Part shown: in pieces, positions 34,134-44,067 of the stretch
Layout: each line of letters opens with the position of its first letter
Numbering within the stretch: the first letter of the stretch is position 1
NCBI GenBank assembly: GCA_026225415.1
Contig: JAMFSS010000001.1
Span: 62,001 to 126,000 of the forward strand
DNA: 64,000 nt
Source of the DNA: Alphaproteobacteria bacterium
GTDB taxonomy: Bacteria; Pseudomonadota; Alphaproteobacteria; UBA9219
Reading direction: 5' to 3'
Translations under genes and position numbers: made by a program
Notes under the pieces: generated by a model
Told to the model about the DNA's origin: nothing
Databases searched by the model: none
Seen by the model: the letters and a program-made list of their open reading frames with translations, nothing else

Positions 34134-35958
34134 GTGCCAGATTTATTATCGACATATCGCCGCCAGTTTTTCGCGCCTTTTATCGCGCTCGCTCTGTTGC
34201 TGACGGTAATGGCGTGTTCGGCCAGTAATCTTCCTTTGGCAAAATCGACAACGGGGCGCGATCCGACCGTGGCCGAAGTGCCGGACAAGGATGAAACGGT
34301 ACGCGGACAGGAGGAGCCTGCCATTGTCACATTGGATCTCAGCACATCGCTGCATGAACATCGTTTGACGATGGCCGATGAATTGCCGACGCATTATTAT
34401 CCCGACCACCAATTTAAACGCGGTGCCCGTGACGGCGGCGTTACAGGCGGTTTTATCCGGCACCGATGTTTCCCTGTCATGGAACACCAAAACATTCGGC
34501 ACGCGCCTTGTGACCGTGATGAACCTCAGCGGCCCCTTGCCGAAAGTGGTCGAAAAAATCTGTTCCGCCGCGCGCGTGTTTTGTGATTATCGCCATGGCT
34601 CTCTGGAATTATCGGACAAGGAAACTTTTGTTGTCGCGTTGCCGCCTGTCGCTAAGGCAGTCGCCAGCACGTCGGCCACAACAACCTCGGGCGGCAGCAG
34701 CTCGCCTTCGCCTATCGGCAGTTCCGGCGCAGGCAACAGCATGGTCGATGCCATCGATCAGCTTTTGGGCAGCGACAACAAGGCGCAGATCGATGAGCAG
34801 GGCGGTAACATCGTCTATACCACCAATGTCGATGGCGAAGACCGCGTGGCGCAATATCTGACCGAACTGCGCACCGGGCGCCCGCTGGTCGTTTTGCAAA
34901 TGTATATTTGGGAAGTGACCCTGACGCGTGAAAATGCCCAGGGCATTAACTGGTCGCAATTGAATATTAATACGGGCGACAAAAGCATAGCGGCCTCTGG
35001 CACGAATGTTCTGAATTCGGTGGCGACGACAGCGGGCAGCGTCAGTCTGGGCGCCGTAACATCGGGCATTATTTCCGCCAGCGCTGTGGCATCCTTCCTC
35101 GCCACCAAAGGCCGCGTGCAGACGATCAGTAATCCGCAAATCACTTTCGTGTCCGGGACATCGGCATCGCTGAAGGTCGGCGGCACGCAACGCTATATCT
35201 CGCAGGTGGGGTCCTTGACCGGCACCACCAATGTAAGCGGCACCAACACCAGCGCCAATTCCAACACCAATGCCAGCACCAACACCGTCAGTACCGACAG
35301 CATCGACACAGGTTTGAATATCGCCGTCGCGGGCAGTTATGAAAACGGCATCGTCTTTGCGAATATGGAAATGTCGTTGCGCAATCTTGTCAGCCTCAAC
35401 CCGACCAACAGCGGCGGCGGCACGATCGATTTGCCGCAAACGACGGACGAAAAAATGGATACCGTCCTGCGCGTCCGTCCGGGCGACTCTCTGGTTATGG
35501 CTGGCCTTGTGTCTTCCGCCGATACGCAATCATCGCAGGGGCTGCCGTTGGGTGACGATACCGCGTTGCCTTTCTATGGCGACAATCAACGCAACAATCA
35601 CGAACTTGTGATTATCGTCAAGCCGTCGATTGTTTTGTTTGCCGACAAATCCGCCACCGAAGAAGCGCAGAAAAAGGAAACATCCAAACCTTTGCCGGAC
35701 GCGGTGGTGATCGATAAGGATGGCTCGCGCACTTTGGCGTTGCCGCAACCAATCCAGGCGCCGCAAACTTTGCCCGCACCTGCGCCTGTTGCCACGCGGC
35801 AACCTGAATTGATGATGCCGGCGGCGGATATATCACCCTTGCCGACAGTGGCGGGATCGCCCGGCGATGACATCGCGCCTGTCGATAAAACTTTGATGCA
35901 GCGTGGATTTTCTCATGCTTTCGATCAAATGCTCCAACCTGCGGGGAGCGGTTTATGA
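34134..35958 (+). CDS. Type IVb pilus/T2SS secretin lipoprotein, apparent frameshift
   Basis: Outer-membrane channel of the pilus/secretion system, PilN-like. It starts at GTG 34134 behind AAGAGG, with a signal peptide and lipobox VMAC near residue 24. That frame runs as coding to about 34400. From 34369 the next frame is open and continues to 35958 with the N-terminal domain (VTAALQAVLSGTDVSL), a Thr/Asn/Ser-rich loop and the secretin core (SNPQITFVSGTSASLKVGG, LRVRPGDSLVMAGLVS). One base must be skipped near 34390-34420 to join the halves. The cause could be a sequencing error, mutation or programmed shift. Stop overlaps the next ATG. Confidence 0.75.
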
Positions 35959-37205
35959 AACCGGTTTTAATGCGCATAGTTATTCTCATTTTGTTTAGCG
36001 CGTTGATAACGGGTGCGGCATCGGCGCGTGACGCCGCCTTTCTCGATCCGGGCAGCACAAGCGGCAGCGGATCGGAAGCCGTCAAAGTCGACCCCAAAGC
36101 CGAAGTGGATGTCGGCGACACGGTATTGGGCGTCGCCAAACGCACATCGATTTTCTTCGTCAACCAAACCAATCTGCCGGTCAAGATCGAAAAGGTCGTC
36201 GTCAATAACGACTCCAACGTCACGGCGGAAGCCACCGCGAATGACTGCACCAAGCAGGGCGTGATAGCACCGCAAAGCCGGTGCAGTGTCGAAATTTCCG
36301 CGACGCCCACCAGCTCGGGCTCATGGAGCATCGATGTGTTGATGACGCATGACGGCGCGGGGCGCATCACACGCGCCAAATTAACCGGCAAGACCAGCGG
36401 TTCGGGCAGCGGCGAAAAAAGCACCGGCCTGTCGGTCAACACCAAGGAAATCAAACCGGTCGATTTCGGCGATGTTGCCATCGGCGACGGCAAAATCGTG
36501 CGTTCGACCTTGATGATCAATGACAGCGCCGAACCGATCACCATTTTTTCGATTGATGTGATCGAAGCCGATAACGGCTTGCAACGTCTGGATCAGGGCT
36601 GCGCGGTTGATATGGAACTTGCGCCCGGTGCGTCTTGTCCCGTGACGCTTGTGTGGTCGCCCAAAAATAACGGCGCGGTATCGACCGATCTGATTATCCG
36701 CCACAGCGGCAAATTGGGTTTTGCCGTTATCCCCATCCGTGGTTCCGCCAAAGGCGGTTCCAACGCGCCGGAAGAAGCCAGCGGAAAATCGGGCGGCAAG
36801 CATGATGTCGTTCCCCTGCCGCCAACCGCGCAGGATCTGGAAAAAGAAATGGCCGGTAAAATCGCGCCTGTGCCGGATGCAGCTCTGGGCCGCGGCGCCA
36901 GCGGTGCCGGTAACGGCACAACGCAACTCATCGGCACCGTGGGCGAAAAGGCCTTGATCCTGAAAAGTGACGGCGACACCGAAGTCGTGCCGATGGGCGG
37001 CGAATTCGATGCGGGCGGAAAAACCGCCAAGATCGTCGCGATTACCGCGCGGTCTATCGATATCGTTGTCGAAGGTAAACGTAAAACGCTGGTGCTGCAT
37101 GCCGCGCAATCGCTGGTGTCGCAAGCGGCGGATGATGCCGCGAAAAATGCGCCCCAACAGACACCGCAAAAAGATTTCTCCATCAGCGGCGGGGGCAAGA
37201 GATGA
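35955..37205 (+). CDS. Periplasmic PilP/GspC-like protein with two HYDIN-like domains
   Basis: A 416-residue exported protein. After a signal peptide (cleavage near ASARD, residue 25) come two beta-sandwich domains of the HYDIN/ASPM type, residues about 45-150 and 165-268, each with a Cys pair (NDCTKQ/SRCSVE and QGCAVD/ASCPVT). A Gly/Pro linker leads to a C-terminal domain (about 325-385, IGTVGEKALILKSDGDTEVVPM) resembling the PilP/GspC homology region that contacts secretins. It is translationally coupled to the secretin and ATPase. The domain combination is unusual; the HYDIN and PilP calls rest on pattern only. Confidence 0.65.
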   Translation: MKPVLMRIVILILFSALITGAASARDAAFLDPGSTSGSGSEAVKVDPKAEVDVGDTVLGVAKRTSIFFVNQTNLPVKIEKVVVNNDSNVTAEATANDCTKQGVIAPQSRCSVEISATPTSSGSWSIDVLMTHDGAGRITRAKLTGKTSGSGSGEKSTGLSVNTKEIKPVDFGDVAIGDGKIVRSTLMINDSAEPITIFSIDVIEADNGLQRLDQGCAVDMELAPGASCPVTLVWSPKNNGAVSTDLIIRHSGKLGFAVIPIRGSAKGGSNAPEEASGKSGGKHDVVPLPPTAQDLEKEMAGKIAPVPDAALGRGASGAGNGTTQLIGTVGEKALILKSDGDTEVVPMGGEFDAGGKTAKIVAITARSIDIVVEGKRKTLVLHAAQSLVSQAADDAAKNAPQQTPQKDFSISGGGKR

Positions 37206-38956
37206 GCGAACTTCCCACCTCATCAACCGATATGATGCGGGCGCAGGCCGAGGCGCTCAAGGTCAAGCCGAAGCATTATGAATTGGCTTTGGCCGAACAG
37301 GCGATGCGCCGCACCAATGGCCGCCTGATGTCGATTGAAGAAATTCTGCACCGTAACGGTTTCGCATCCGGCGCGCGCGACGCGTCAAAAAACAAGGGCG
37401 GCGGCAACGAAGACATGACCATGCAGGCGCTGCGTTTGTATGTGCCGTCCGCCACGCAGGCCGCCATGGGTTTGTGCTTGCTGGAATTGCGCAACGGCGT
37501 TTTACGCATTGCGGTGGGCGACCGCGTCGATGATGCGGATTTATTGCGTATCTCGACATCGCTGGCGCGCGCCAACCACAAAGTGGTGACGGTGGAAGCC
37601 GAACCCTGGGACCGCGCCGAACTGGCGCGGCTGATGCGCGAACAAAGCGAAATGGCCGGTGACAGGTTGCTGCGTATTCTGGTGGCGCTGTCGCGCGACC
37701 CGGATGACGCAATGATGATCGAACAGGCGGTGCATGATATTCTGGCCGAAGCGTTGCAAAGCCGTACATCGGATATTCATTTATCGTTACAGGAAGATGA
37801 TGCGCGTTGCTGGATCCGCTACCGCGTTGACGGCGATCTTGTATACAAACATTTATTGCCGCATCGCGTGATGGCGCCAATCGTCACCCGTATCAAAACC
37901 GATGCCAAAATGGATGCGGCAGACAGACAGCATCCGCAAGATGGCCGTTTGGCGTTTGAATGGCAGGGGCGTATGATCGACGTTCGTTGTGCCGCTTTGC
38001 CTGTTGCGCCTTCCGGCGAAAAACTCACGCTTCGTTTGCTCGATCGTGAAAATTTGCGCTCGTTTGAAGAATTGTTTTTACATGCGCCCGTCGTTGCCGA
38101 CCGGTTGCGCAAATCCATTCACGGCCATACCAAAGACGGCGGCTTGATTGTGGTGTCGGGGCCAACCGGTTCCGGTAAATCCACAACTTTGTACGGTATT
38201 ATTCAGGATATCGACCGCGCATCCCGCGCCGTCTATTCGGTCGAAGCGCCTGTCGAATATGACATGCCCTTGGTCGACCAAACATCGGTGACCGACGGCA
38301 CCACCAATAATTCCATCGCTGATATTATTCGTGCCCTCATGCGTCATGATCCCGACGTTATCATCGTCGGCGAAATGCGTGACGGCGATACGGTCGAAGC
38401 CGCTTTGCGTGCCACGGAATCCGGCCATATGGTTATCACCACGGTTCACTCTGTCGATGCTTTGCACACGCTTGACCGTATCGACGGGTTCCTCAGTTCC
38501 GCTTACCGCACCAGCGGTCTGTATATTTTGGGTCACGCGCTTATCGCCAGCCTGTCGCAGCGGTTGGTGAAAACGGTTTGCCCCGCCTGCCACAAAAAAG
38601 AAAAAGCATCGGTGGTGTTCGACAGCATCGAACGTTGTAGCGAAATCAGTATCGATCCTGACGCGCCTTTGGCGCTAGCCCTCAAAGAAGGGTGCGATTT
38701 ATGTAACCATAGCGGATTTTTGGGTCGTACGCTGGCATTGGAGGCGATGTTTCCGCCCGAAGACCAAGCCAGCCGCCGCGCGATTACCGAAATGATGGTT
38801 TCCAACGTCACCAATTCTATCGTCGATGTGCCGGGCACCATTTACATGCCGCGCCGCCAATCCATTCTCGACCTTATCCGCCGCAACGCCATCGATGCCA
38901 ATATGGGCGCGGCGATGTTGATCGAAGAATCCGCCTCCGGACATGGTCGGGGGTAG
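37202..38956 (+). CDS. GspE/PilB/PilQ family assembly ATPase
   Basis: Cytoplasmic hexameric ATPase that drives pilus assembly or secretion. A 584-residue protein with an N-terminal GspE-N-like region (about 40-150), Walker A GPTGSGKST at 320-328, Walker B region DPDVIIVGEMRD with the catalytic Glu (383-394), a His box HMVITTVHSVDA, and a CPAC...CDLC zinc-binding region (460-505). Starts in an ATGA overlap with the previous gene. Most like the type IVb (R64 PilQ) branch by operon context. Confidence 0.9.
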   Translation: MSELPTSSTDMMRAQAEALKVKPKHYELALAEQAMRRTNGRLMSIEEILHRNGFASGARDASKNKGGGNEDMTMQALRLYVPSATQAAMGLCLLELRNGVLRIAVGDRVDDADLLRISTSLARANHKVVTVEAEPWDRAELARLMREQSEMAGDRLLRILVALSRDPDDAMMIEQAVHDILAEALQSRTSDIHLSLQEDDARCWIRYRVDGDLVYKHLLPHRVMAPIVTRIKTDAKMDAADRQHPQDGRLAFEWQGRMIDVRCAALPVAPSGEKLTLRLLDRENLRSFEELFLHAPVVADRLRKSIHGHTKDGGLIVVSGPTGSGKSTTLYGIIQDIDRASRAVYSVEAPVEYDMPLVDQTSVTDGTTNNSIADIIRALMRHDPDVIIVGEMRDGDTVEAALRATESGHMVITTVHSVDALHTLDRIDGFLSSAYRTSGLYILGHALIASLSQRLVKTVCPACHKKEKASVVFDSIERCSEISIDPDAPLALALKEGCDLCNHSGFLGRTLALEAMFPPEDQASRRAITEMMVSNVTNSIVDVPGTIYMPRRQSILDLIRRNAIDANMGAAMLIEESASGHGRG

Positions 38957-38962
38957 GGCGCG

Positions 38963-39079
38963 ATGAAACTTTTCCACGCCAAATACGCCCAGATGAGACA
39001 CGGTTCGCGATCGTTTCAAATTCTTCATTTGAAGCGTGAATCGCCGAACCAAAAATATAAAAAAGCCGGGGCGCGATGA
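38963..39079 (+). CDS. 38-residue mini-ORF, first duplicate of the PilR start
   Basis: Begins six bases after the ATPase stop, at the position where the PilR gene would be expected. The first 14 residues, MKLFHAKYAQMRHG, are those of the PilR protein; the next 24 come from the inserted hairpin DNA and are basic (Arg/Lys-rich). The TGA at 39077-39079 overlaps the ATG of the second mini-ORF. It may be a translated relay or simply a by-product of the duplication. Confidence 0.45.
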   Translation: MKLFHAKYAQMRHGSRSFQILHLKRESPNQKYKKAGAR

Positions 39080-39192
39080 AACTTTTTCACGCCAAATACG
39101 CCCAGATGCGCCACGGTTCGCGATCGTTTCAAATTCTTCATTTGAAACGTGAATCGCCGAACCAAAAATATAAAAAAGCCGGGGCGCGATGA
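39076..39192 (+). CDS. 38-residue mini-ORF, second duplicate of the PilR start
   Basis: Encodes the same 38-residue peptide as the first mini-ORF. Its TGA (39190-39192) overlaps the ATG of the real PilR gene at 39189, so a ribosome could pass from ATPase to mini-ORF 1, mini-ORF 2 and PilR by successive reinitiation. Protein function is doubtful; the conserved frame suggests either recent origin or use in coupling. Confidence 0.45.
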   Translation: MKLFHAKYAQMRHGSRSFQILHLKRESPNQKYKKAGAR

Positions 39193-40409
39193 AACTTTTT
39201 CACGCCAAATACGCCCAGATGCGCCACGGCACAGTGAATGTGATGGAGGAAGATTTTTATCTTCCCGATCAACATTCGGTGCGGCGTCAACTGCGCAATA
39301 ACGGTTTCTTCCCCATCAATATCCGCGAACAAAAACCGCCCTTGTTCGAATGGGCCGATGTGCGGTCACGCGCATGGCAGGTTCAACTTTTGCGTGCCTT
39401 GCGGTTTCAGGGCGCGACGGCCTCCGCTGGTACCGCGTTATTGAACATCATCGAGGGCGAAAGCGACCCCAAACGGCGTATCGCTTTTCTGCCGACGCGT
39501 ACCGTGTTGAAAGGCGGCGGTTCTTTCTCCGAAGCCTTGCGCGCCTTGCGGTTGCTGGATGCCGCCACGATGGCGATCATCACGGCGGGCGAACGCGCCG
39601 GCGATCTGAAAGGCGTTATCCAACACGCCATCGAACACACCGAAGAAAAAGGCAAACAGACCAAAATCATCATCACAGCGCTCAGCTGGCTGTCATTCGA
39701 TATCGTCAATATCATCGGCACCGTGTGGGGGGCGCAATTCGGCTTTATCCCTTATCTGAAAAGCCAGGGCACCAAGGCGACCGACCCGCAGGCCATCGAA
39801 AAATTCAACCACGCCATTACGATTGCGACATGGGTGAATATGACCCTGTTGGTGGTGATATCGGCCATTGCCTTTGGCGGCGCGTCGTTCGCGGCCATGT
39901 ATTGGTTTAACCGGCAAAACCCGTATCATTTCACATCGAAATGGATGATGAAAATGCCGATCATGTCGGCCTATCTGCGGAATATCAGCATGAAGGAAAG
40001 CAGCAAGCTGGTTCAGCGTTTGCTGAACGGCAAAGTGCCGCTGGCCGATGCGCTCGATATTATCATCGAGTCGGTTTACGAACCGGCCTCGCGCCTGTAC
40101 TGGACGGAAAGCAAGGCGCGCATTATGGCGGGTATGGACCCGTCGCGCGCTTTGTCGCGCTGGCCGTTGGTCAAGGGCGAACGCGACCAGATTATGACCA
40201 TCCAATCGGTCGACCAATTGGCCGAAGTGTATCAGGCGATTGCCGATGAACGCGGACTTATGGCAAAATCCGACCAACGGCGTCTGGCTTTGTTGGGTAT
40301 GATGACAATGATGGGGTTGGCGGGCGCCACCATTTTGGTCATGATCTATTTGTTGATGGTTCAAAATGACAGCTTCCTCGACAGTCTCAAAGGACTCCGT
40401 GGGGGCTAA
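39189..40409 (+). CDS. GspF/PilC/PilR family inner-membrane platform protein
   Basis: Inner-membrane platform of the pilus/secretion machine, 406 residues. Two cytoplasmic GspF domains are separated by a pair of membrane helices (about 160-185 and 212-240), and a third helix lies near 375-395. Family features include ITAGERAGDL in the first repeat and the SVDQLAEVYQ segment in the second. It starts at the third copy of a duplicated start region. Followed by the PilO-like gene after 40 bases. Confidence 0.85.
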   Translation: MKLFHAKYAQMRHGTVNVMEEDFYLPDQHSVRRQLRNNGFFPINIREQKPPLFEWADVRSRAWQVQLLRALRFQGATASAGTALLNIIEGESDPKRRIAFLPTRTVLKGGGSFSEALRALRLLDAATMAIITAGERAGDLKGVIQHAIEHTEEKGKQTKIIITALSWLSFDIVNIIGTVWGAQFGFIPYLKSQGTKATDPQAIEKFNHAITIATWVNMTLLVVISAIAFGGASFAAMYWFNRQNPYHFTSKWMMKMPIMSAYLRNISMKESSKLVQRLLNGKVPLADALDIIIESVYEPASRLYWTESKARIMAGMDPSRALSRWPLVKGERDQIMTIQSVDQLAEVYQAIADERGLMAKSDQRRLALLGMMTMMGLAGATILVMIYLLMVQNDSFLDSLKGLRGG

Positions 40410-42921: not shown

Positions 42922-44067
42922 TCAGGATTGGCCGCGCCATTTTTCGATCCAGATATCCAGATCGGATGCTGTCATCGGATGGCCGATAAAAAATCCTTGC
43001 GCATAGTCGCACCCTTTGTCGCGCATCAAATCCCATGTCGCCTCGTCTTCTATGCCTTCGGCGATAATGCGAAGCCCCAGATTATGCCCCAGATCGATCA
43101 TTGACGCGACGATCACGGCGGCATCGGCGCTTTTTGTGCTGTCGGATATAAAGTTACGGTCGATTTTCAATTCGCTGAACGGCATGCGTTGCAATTCGCG
43201 CAACGATGAATGGCCTGTCCCGAAATCATCGATCGAAATGCCGATATTGCGCAAACGCATGCGCAACAAAACATCCATGGTGCGGGTGACGTCGCGCATC
43301 GCTTCGGTTTCGGTCACTTCAAGGATAAGCCGGTCATGCGGCACATTATATTTATTGCACATGTCGGCAATTTTATCGGGCATCGACAGATCGAGCAGGG
43401 AAGATGCCGATACATTGATGGACAAGGTCAGCTTGTGGCCCGCCTTGTCCCACACGCCGGCCTGTTTAATGGCCGATGCGATAACAAAATCGGTCAAAGC
43501 CTGCATCAGGCCGCCATTGGTGATTTTGTCCAAAAATTTATCGGGCATGAGAACGCCGCGTTCGGGATGTTGCCACCGCGCCAAAGCCTCGACGCCTTTA
43601 ATCGCCCGCGTCTTTAAATCGACGATCGGCTGGTAATAAAGCATGAACTGGCCGTTGGCCAGCGCATGGCCGTGATTATCGCCGTCTGCCGGACGCGCTG
43701 TGCTGACGGCCTGTTTAAAAAACTCATCCAATGTCTGGATGCTTAATGGTTTTTCAAGCGCGGCGATAACATCCAACCCATGCGCGCTGCCCAAACGGCG
43801 CGCGCTGTTCAACACGCGCGAATCGCTTCCACTGATAAGGCATAATTTGGCCTGTTTGGATTTTTCGGACAAAAGCCGCAACAGCTCGACCCCATCGATG
43901 CCCGGCATCATCAAATCCATCATGATGATATCGGGGATGAAATCCGACAGGATGCCGGACACATTTTCGGCGTCGCTTATGGTGCGCGTTTCCAAATCGT
44001 GGCGTGCGGCGATTTCCGCGATGAGATCGCAGATATCTTCTTCGTCATCGATAATCAGCAAACGCAT
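42922..44067 (-). CDS. REC-EAL response regulator, cyclic-di-GMP phosphodiesterase
   Basis: Response regulator of 381 residues. The receiver domain has phospho-acceptor Asp 51 (IIMMDLMMPG), acidic Asp 7-8 and Lys 106. The EAL domain (about 135-375) has all catalytic and metal residues: EAL at 160-162, LEVTETE, DDFGTGHSS, KIDRNFI, AEGIED and GCDYAQGFFIG. It should hydrolyse cyclic-di-GMP. It follows the hybrid kinase by 16 bases in the same operon and is the likely output; the neighbouring pilus locus is an obvious candidate target (inference). Confidence 0.92.
   Translation of the reverse strand: MRLLIIDDEEDICDLIAEIAARHDLETRTISDAENVSGILSDFIPDIIMMDLMMPGIDGVELLRLLSEKSKQAKLCLISGSDSRVLNSARRLGSAHGLDVIAALEKPLSIQTLDEFFKQAVSTARPADGDNHGHALANGQFMLYYQPIVDLKTRAIKGVEALARWQHPERGVLMPDKFLDKITNGGLMQALTDFVIASAIKQAGVWDKAGHKLTLSINVSASSLLDLSMPDKIADMCNKYNVPHDRLILEVTETEAMRDVTRTMDVLLRMRLRNIGISIDDFGTGHSSLRELQRMPFSELKIDRNFISDSTKSADAAVIVASMIDLGHNLGLRIIAEGIEDEATWDLMRDKGCDYAQGFFIGHPMTASDLDIWIEKWRGQS

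Follow-up and report, generated by a model that had tools for sequence, protein, structure and literature searches.

Small dispersed palindromes are common in alphaproteobacteria, and their mode of movement is still an open matter. The Rhizobium intergenic mosaic elements (RIMEs), which Osteras is said to have described in 1995, are reportedly short palindromic mosaic repeats of this class. In the present work we analyzed a stretch of 64,000 nucleotides of an Alphaproteobacteria bacterium (assembly GCA_026225415.1, contig JAMFSS010000001.1; hereafter the window), in which a short hairpin repeat and the start of a pilus gene, here called pilR, form a tandem array. The closest described systems differ in how they sit relative to genes: the CcrM-associated intergenic repeats (CIRs) of Caulobacter (Chen and Shapiro 2003) are said, in the description used, not to occur inside genes (PMC2229807), and the GTAG-tagged repetitive extragenic palindromes (REPs) are reported often to provide, at their edge, the stop codon for the gene before them (PMC3733652). 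The distinctive feature of the repeat analyzed here is its repeated association with diverged copies of gene ends, an arrangement of copy, hairpin and copy that we found at six loci, distributed over three genomes of the genus, one of the six being inferred from contig ends.

The hairpin repeat and its array at the pilR start

Tandem Repeats Finder (TRF) detected a single array in the window, at 38956-39229, with a period of 113, 2.4 copies and 97% matches. Its order is S1-I1-S2-I2-S3, where the start segment S (48-49 bp, three copies) repeats, in its extra copies, the first 14 codons of pilR, and the insert I (64-65 bp) occurs twice, at about 39004-39068 and about 39117-39181, the junctions being ambiguous by one base. 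An earlier note on this DNA had described three starts and two hairpin inserts at a period of 113, with 38-codon open reading frames (ORFs) chained by ATGA into the real gene, and this layout is borne out by TRF and by the ORF coordinates (Table 1): both mini-ORF stops are the TGA of the ATGA at the following start. The same note took copy 1 to be older and copies 2 and 3 to be near-identical, in agreement with our finding that S2 and S3 are identical, while S1 differs from them by 3 nt and I1 from I2 by 1 nt. Both hairpins fold at -22.7 kcal/mol, with 0 of 200 shuffles as good (z scores in Table 1); inspection of the sequence revealed no terminator T-run after them on either strand, and no Rfam match at gathering score was obtained in the window region, where a sub-gathering nrdJ hit (E 0.76) was taken as chance.

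The insert is a member of an alphaproteobacterial dispersed hairpin repeat, composed of an arm, an A-rich linker and sometimes a second arm. The search of the insert against the rest of the genome (G000) that the earlier note had proposed gave a divided answer: no near-identical further copy was found, but a covariance model places the family at 12 positions of this genome, two in the window and ten elsewhere. In a DNA search of 59 genomes, the closest match (92% over 53 nt) lies in G005, of the same genus, between two ORFs that we take to be rplJ and rplL, and the weaker matches have a common fixed core and a variable inner stem. The hairpin is conserved by compensatory covariation. Indeed, in 14 aligned copies with 96.0% paired cells, 48 changes affect both sides of a pair, versus 11.9 in shuffled data (none of 500 shuffles reached the observed number), and the signal is lost when the pairing is shifted; the structure was drawn from the same 14 copies, which favours it somewhat, although the excess over the shuffles is still large. 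The motif GAATC, a GANTC site, is invariant in all 14.

Covariance-model matches occur in 11 of the 59 genomes and, class-wide and under stricter filters, in 12 of 385, the own genome being included in both counts. With strands merged, the sister genomes G005, G002 and G007 hold 34, about 11 and 10 places, respectively; among five other genomes of the genus, G003, G004, G006 and G008 have none and G009 one weak match. The relatives named here are metagenome-assembled genomes of uncultured Alphaproteobacteria. In the set of 75 hairpin copies (rows) used for the comparison of flanks, a second arm follows the A-rich linker in 17, and the window copies are without it; this second arm, AGAGCATGAT...ATCATGCTCT, presumably resembles RIMEs. 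No Rfam match at gathering score was found in 8 sources bearing the element, nor was the exact hairpin-core pattern found in viral contigs. Thirteen near-identical two-arm elements (L209-L221) were observed in G060, a complete genome of another family, which is a good place to study recent movement.

The repeat is similar to CIRs in being alphaproteobacterial, dispersed and mostly intergenic, with GANTC in the fixed part and, in its two-arm copies, hairpin arms joined by a linker; unlike CIRs, with which it was compared by description only, the window copy is one-armed and lies inside reading frames, i.e., the mini-ORFs made from the pilR start, and diverged gene-end copies go unmentioned in the CIR description used (PMC2229807). 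With the GTAG/CGTC-tagged REPs and the REPINs it shares dispersed palindromes, pairs in opposite orientation (in several distant genomes, about 13 nt apart), and an edge that is the stop codon of the preceding same-strand ORF in 13 of the 75 rows (PMC3733652). Unlike REPs, it has a longer stem and no GTAG/CGTC tag by eye; a gene for RAYT (Y1_Tnp) is missing from G000, G002 and G007, and G005 has one weak hit; any RAYT gene occurs in 4 of 16 repeat-bearing genomes, and RAYT was discarded as the mobiliser, its presence being uncorrelated with the repeat. The Rickettsia palindromic elements (RPEs) are likewise palindromic repeats within alphaproteobacterial coding sequence but, according to the description used, are read in frame within the protein, unlike here, where the mini-ORFs stop at the next ATG, PilR is without the insert and a further start copy restores the gene (PMC2229807). 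The architecture of the repeat is close to that of CIRs and RIMEs; it behaves like these and like REPs, and may belong with them. The literature searched held no matching description of gene-end copies at palindromes, most subscription journals being outside its coverage, so that absence from print is not shown.

Gene-end copies on both sides of the hairpin

In the 75-row comparison, six rows, belonging to four loci, have direct repeats that span the element with scores of 53-122, while the remaining 69 reach 23 or less. The four loci are pilR in the window, the 3' end of a TonB-receptor gene in G002 (three copies, period 110), and the start of miaB in G002 and again in G005; these names, together with frr, mlaF and fabH below, are those that we assign by recognition of the protein sequences. 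A second test of 50 elements, of which the 49 other than frr came from distant families, gave a single positive, the frr start of G002, the next score being 25. The sixth locus, the mlaF 3' end in G002, was inferred by inspection, because two contig ends (L066:1-130 and L067:1-140, on contigs C55 and C14) begin in one and the same hairpin array, of 57-bp period, and share this gene end; the two contigs probably abut in the genome. Two of the six loci (TonB and mlaF) are thus 3' gene ends and four are 5' ends, and the former cannot serve to couple anything to a start codon.

The coding part of the repeat is 39-45 nt at five of the six loci, G005 miaB having 69. At five loci, too, only a few bases separate the end of the left copy from the hairpin, 28 extra nt being present at frr. 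At pilR, TonB, mlaF and the two miaB loci, the copies cease to be homologous 0-7 nt away from the start or stop codon, which fits alleles alignable in the coding sequence only; at frr the homology extends into the ribosome-binding region.

At pilR, the 4 nt that distinguish copy 1 from copy 2 fall in 3 of the 38 codons, all silent (silent/replacement codon differences 3/0). The corresponding counts are 6/0 (S1-S3), 4/0 (S2-S3) and 8/0 (S1-S2) at TonB, 8/1 at G005 miaB and 1/0 at mlaF. Since the differences are almost only silent, the copies at TonB, G005 miaB and pilR look like diverged alleles, although a change at pilR or miaB would in any case be silent if it arose in the working copy. At TonB, S1 and S2 both lie behind a stop codon, and selection on translation therefore does not explain their silence; selection on a mini-ORF peptide was accordingly rejected as a general cause. 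The left miaB start of G005 shows 9 nt differences when compared with the working copy at the same locus, and 7, 8, 12 and 13 when compared with G002, G006, G004 and G000, respectively.

A scan independent of the hairpin model, in which direct repeats at 50-300 bp spacing were sought in the window and in further stretches of 1.6 Mb and then checked against ORFs, retrieved one repeat in the window and 33 elsewhere. Those not within one ORF number 6 of 8 in G002, 1 of 10 in G000 outside the window (resembling, to judge from the sequence, small pilin paralogues), 1 of 5 in G003, and none in G005 (of 5), G010 (of 3) or G024 (of 2). The six of G002 correspond to frr, fabH, miaB, the mlaF array, tRNA-Ser and TonB. 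At fabH (L259:15854-16200, contig C11), the last 11 codons and the stop are present in four copies, spaced 98, 98 and 100; the insert, of 62-64 bp, does not resemble the hairpin family, and the copies show allele-like differences (V/I, A/S, TAG/TAA). At tRNA-Ser(TGA) (L267:7985-8268, contig C14), the 5' half of the gene and its upstream region are duplicated before the intact gene, broken near the anticodon.

As regards pilR itself, a protein search in relatives, with one genome per species, gave matches to pilR in 30 of the 39 genomes, the own genome being counted, and the junction was compared at 25 orthologous loci (L003-L027), the weak, non-orthologous matches L028-L031 being dropped. Each of the 25 has a single pilR start, whose distance to the stop codon before it ranges from -4 to 29 nt, and none of them had the S-I-S array. 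The ATPase and pilR genes overlap by ATGA in seven of these loci; since relatives couple this junction too, the ATGA chain of the window may preserve a coupling already present in them. Of 5000 shuffled inserts of the same length, 42% stay open to the next ATGA and, with a frame factor of about 1/3, the chain is a roughly one-in-seven outcome and by itself weak evidence. An upstream ORF ending at the real start codon exists at two of the four 5'-end loci (pilR and G005 miaB), while at G002 miaB and frr the upstream ORFs are cut short and uncoupled to the real start. In all probability the mini-ORFs arose as by-products and remain coupled by coincidence; an effect of the hairpins on the pilR mRNA or its translation is possible.

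Origin of the pilR array

The most likely origin of the array, in our judgement at about even odds, is the recombination of a hairpin-linker-pilR-start segment from a diverged allele, followed by the duplication of one unit. We infer that, in such a process, a diverged allele of this junction would have supplied the hairpin, the linker and the pilR start, and that these would have joined the native ATPase-pilR junction by recombination near codon 14; S1, the native start, would have stayed upstream as a truncated remnant, the incoming start becoming the working one, and one 113-bp unit would then have been duplicated by unequal exchange or slippage. The recurrence of the arrangement at unrelated genes in sister species points to a recurring process of genome rearrangement and not to a single-gene dial.

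Several observations weigh against this recombinational origin. A single genome, G002, accounts for four of the six loci, and no donor allele was found. Flanking copies are missing from 69 of the 75 rows and from 49 of the 50 elements of the second test; duplication is therefore not the usual outcome. The differences at G002 miaB (2/3) and frr (3/2) are not silent only, and the chances of the observed silence under random change (1e-5 to 4e-5 for TonB S1-S2, 8e-6 to 5e-5 for G005 miaB and 0.002 to 0.005 for pilR) were computed after the fact, the pilR figure resting on 4 nt, two of which share a codon. At TonB, the two inserts show no difference over 65 nt, while the surrounding gene ends differ; inserts and gene ends must therefore have different histories, which a simple one-step import does not explain. 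Lastly, the fabH and tRNA-Ser inserts of G002 fail to match the hairpin model, so that the gene-end copies of this genome extend beyond the hairpin; this weakens the claim of the hairpin as the agent, and the hairpin may be a passenger.

Other processes might have led to the same layout. One is the insertion of a mobile hairpin element with a long target duplication (about 40-50 bp), the unused copy then decaying neutrally. The coding repeat of 39-45 nt and the left copy adjoining the hairpin, each at five of the six loci, are what such an insertion would leave, and G002 miaB resembles neutral decay; we consider it unlikely, however, in view of the silent divergence at TonB (where two of the three copies are behind a stop) and at G005 miaB, of homology ending so close to start or stop codons at five loci, which a random cut would not produce, and of the lack of a RAYT gene in the three genomes mentioned above. 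In a comparison with miniature inverted-repeat transposable elements (MITEs), in which repeats above about 12 nt were examined, the flanking repeats at the six loci were of 39-69 coding nt and mostly diverged. An assembly artefact, in favour of which is the short tandem repeat, seems to us very improbable, given that the copies differ at 4 positions, that the genome (2.02 Mb in 11 contigs) has a completeness of 100 and a contamination of 0.47, and that the same architecture exists at other loci and in other genomes.

Two further explanations assign a function to the mini-ORFs, and we hold the chance of either to be small. The earlier note had proposed that the coupled chain with its hairpins could tune PilR dosage relative to the ATPase and, given changes in copy number, would be a phase-variable rheostat. 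This would agree with the exact ATGA chain and the ATGA overlap of seven relatives, with perfect hairpins in the transcript, and with the identity of S2 and S3, as after a recent duplication of one unit; the comparison lends no specific support to a PilR-specific, phase-variable device, since the insert belongs to a dispersed family and the pattern is not specific to the pilus, occurring also at miaB, frr, the TonB receptor and mlaF and hence at 3' ends as well. Moreover, the chain is expected in about one in seven such inserts, two of the four 5' cases are uncoupled, and the array is in no relative examined. As for a local duplication of pilR whose upstream copies were kept by selection on a translated 38-aa leader, the silence of all four nucleotide differences between the mini-ORFs, with its low chance under random change, is in favour of it; yet the TonB copies behind a stop codon are equally silent, G002 miaB and frr have only shortened upstream ORFs, and the four differences may have arisen in the working copy.

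We can speculate, with little confidence, that the element moves as a unit of roughly 110-125 bp, in which the right half, of a set length counted from the hairpin, is usually occupied by a second arm but at pilR, G002 miaB, TonB and mlaF by a captured gene end of about equal total length. Such a unit would travel between species, integrate by homology at the cognate gene, supply a new gene end and leave the old one as a dated remnant. The linker plus the second arm measures 59-64 nt in 14 of the 17 two-arm copies, and the linker plus the gene-end copy 66 nt at pilR, 62 at G002 miaB, 60-64 at TonB and 63 at mlaF; this regularity was noticed after the fact and is broken at two of the six loci (97 nt at G005 miaB and about 103 nt at frr). 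Integrative islands, for example at the 5' end of dusA, reportedly also restore the target gene with a foreign gene end and leave a remnant copy, but, unlike such islands, the unit here is of about 110 bp and without an integrase.

The pilR region and what the arrays may record

The pilR-like gene lies behind the genes for a T2SSE ATPase and a secretin. The names T2SSF, T2SSE and secretin are supported by domains, while that of PilR comes from the earlier note; NCBIfam models of the GspF/PilC type match the PilR-like protein only below their cut-offs.

Table 1. Features of the ATPase-pilR junction in the window (all on the + strand).
Feature	Positions	Strand	Basis and remarks
T2SSE-domain pilus/secretion ATPase gene	37202..38956	+	ORF; Pfam T2SSE 5.2e-81; TAG stop abuts S1
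S1, oldest pilR start-segment copy	38956..39003	+	Sequence, TRF; differs from S2/S3 at 3 nt, all silent
Mini-ORF 1, 38 aa, ends in ATGA	38963..39079	+	ORF list
Hairpin 1, single-arm member of the repeat family	39002..39050	+	Fold z -4.55; model R1 61.3 bits
A-rich linker 1	39051..39068	+	Sequence; A-rich linker present in other family copies too
S2, second pilR start-segment copy	39069..39116	+	Sequence, TRF
Mini-ORF 2, 38 aa identical to mini-ORF 1, ends in ATGA at the real start	39076..39192	+	ORF list
Hairpin 2	39115..39163	+	Fold z -5.30; model R1 64.7 bits
A-rich linker 2	39164..39181	+	Sequence
S3, start segment joined to the working pilR	39182..39229	+	Sequence, TRF
PilR-like inner-membrane platform protein, T2SSF domain, 406 aa	39189..40409	+	ORF; Pfam T2SSF 1.3e-15

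Two neighbours were also observed. Between the secretin and the pilus ATPase, positions 35955-37205 of the window encode a protein with ASH/HYDIN-like Ig domains (PF15780), and beside the pilus operon, at 42922-44067 on the - strand, there is an ORF that resembles, as recognised by eye, a response regulator with an EAL-type domain.

Our results also advise caution in inferring gene-specific regulation from arrays of this kind seen in one genome. Here, the palindromes are tied to a repeated, allele-level exchange of gene ends. The junctions left by it allow comparison and a relative dating, since every remnant copy preserves an allele that was earlier or foreign. Should the pattern hold, it would link short palindromes to interspecies recombination at gene boundaries and make their mode of spread testable.

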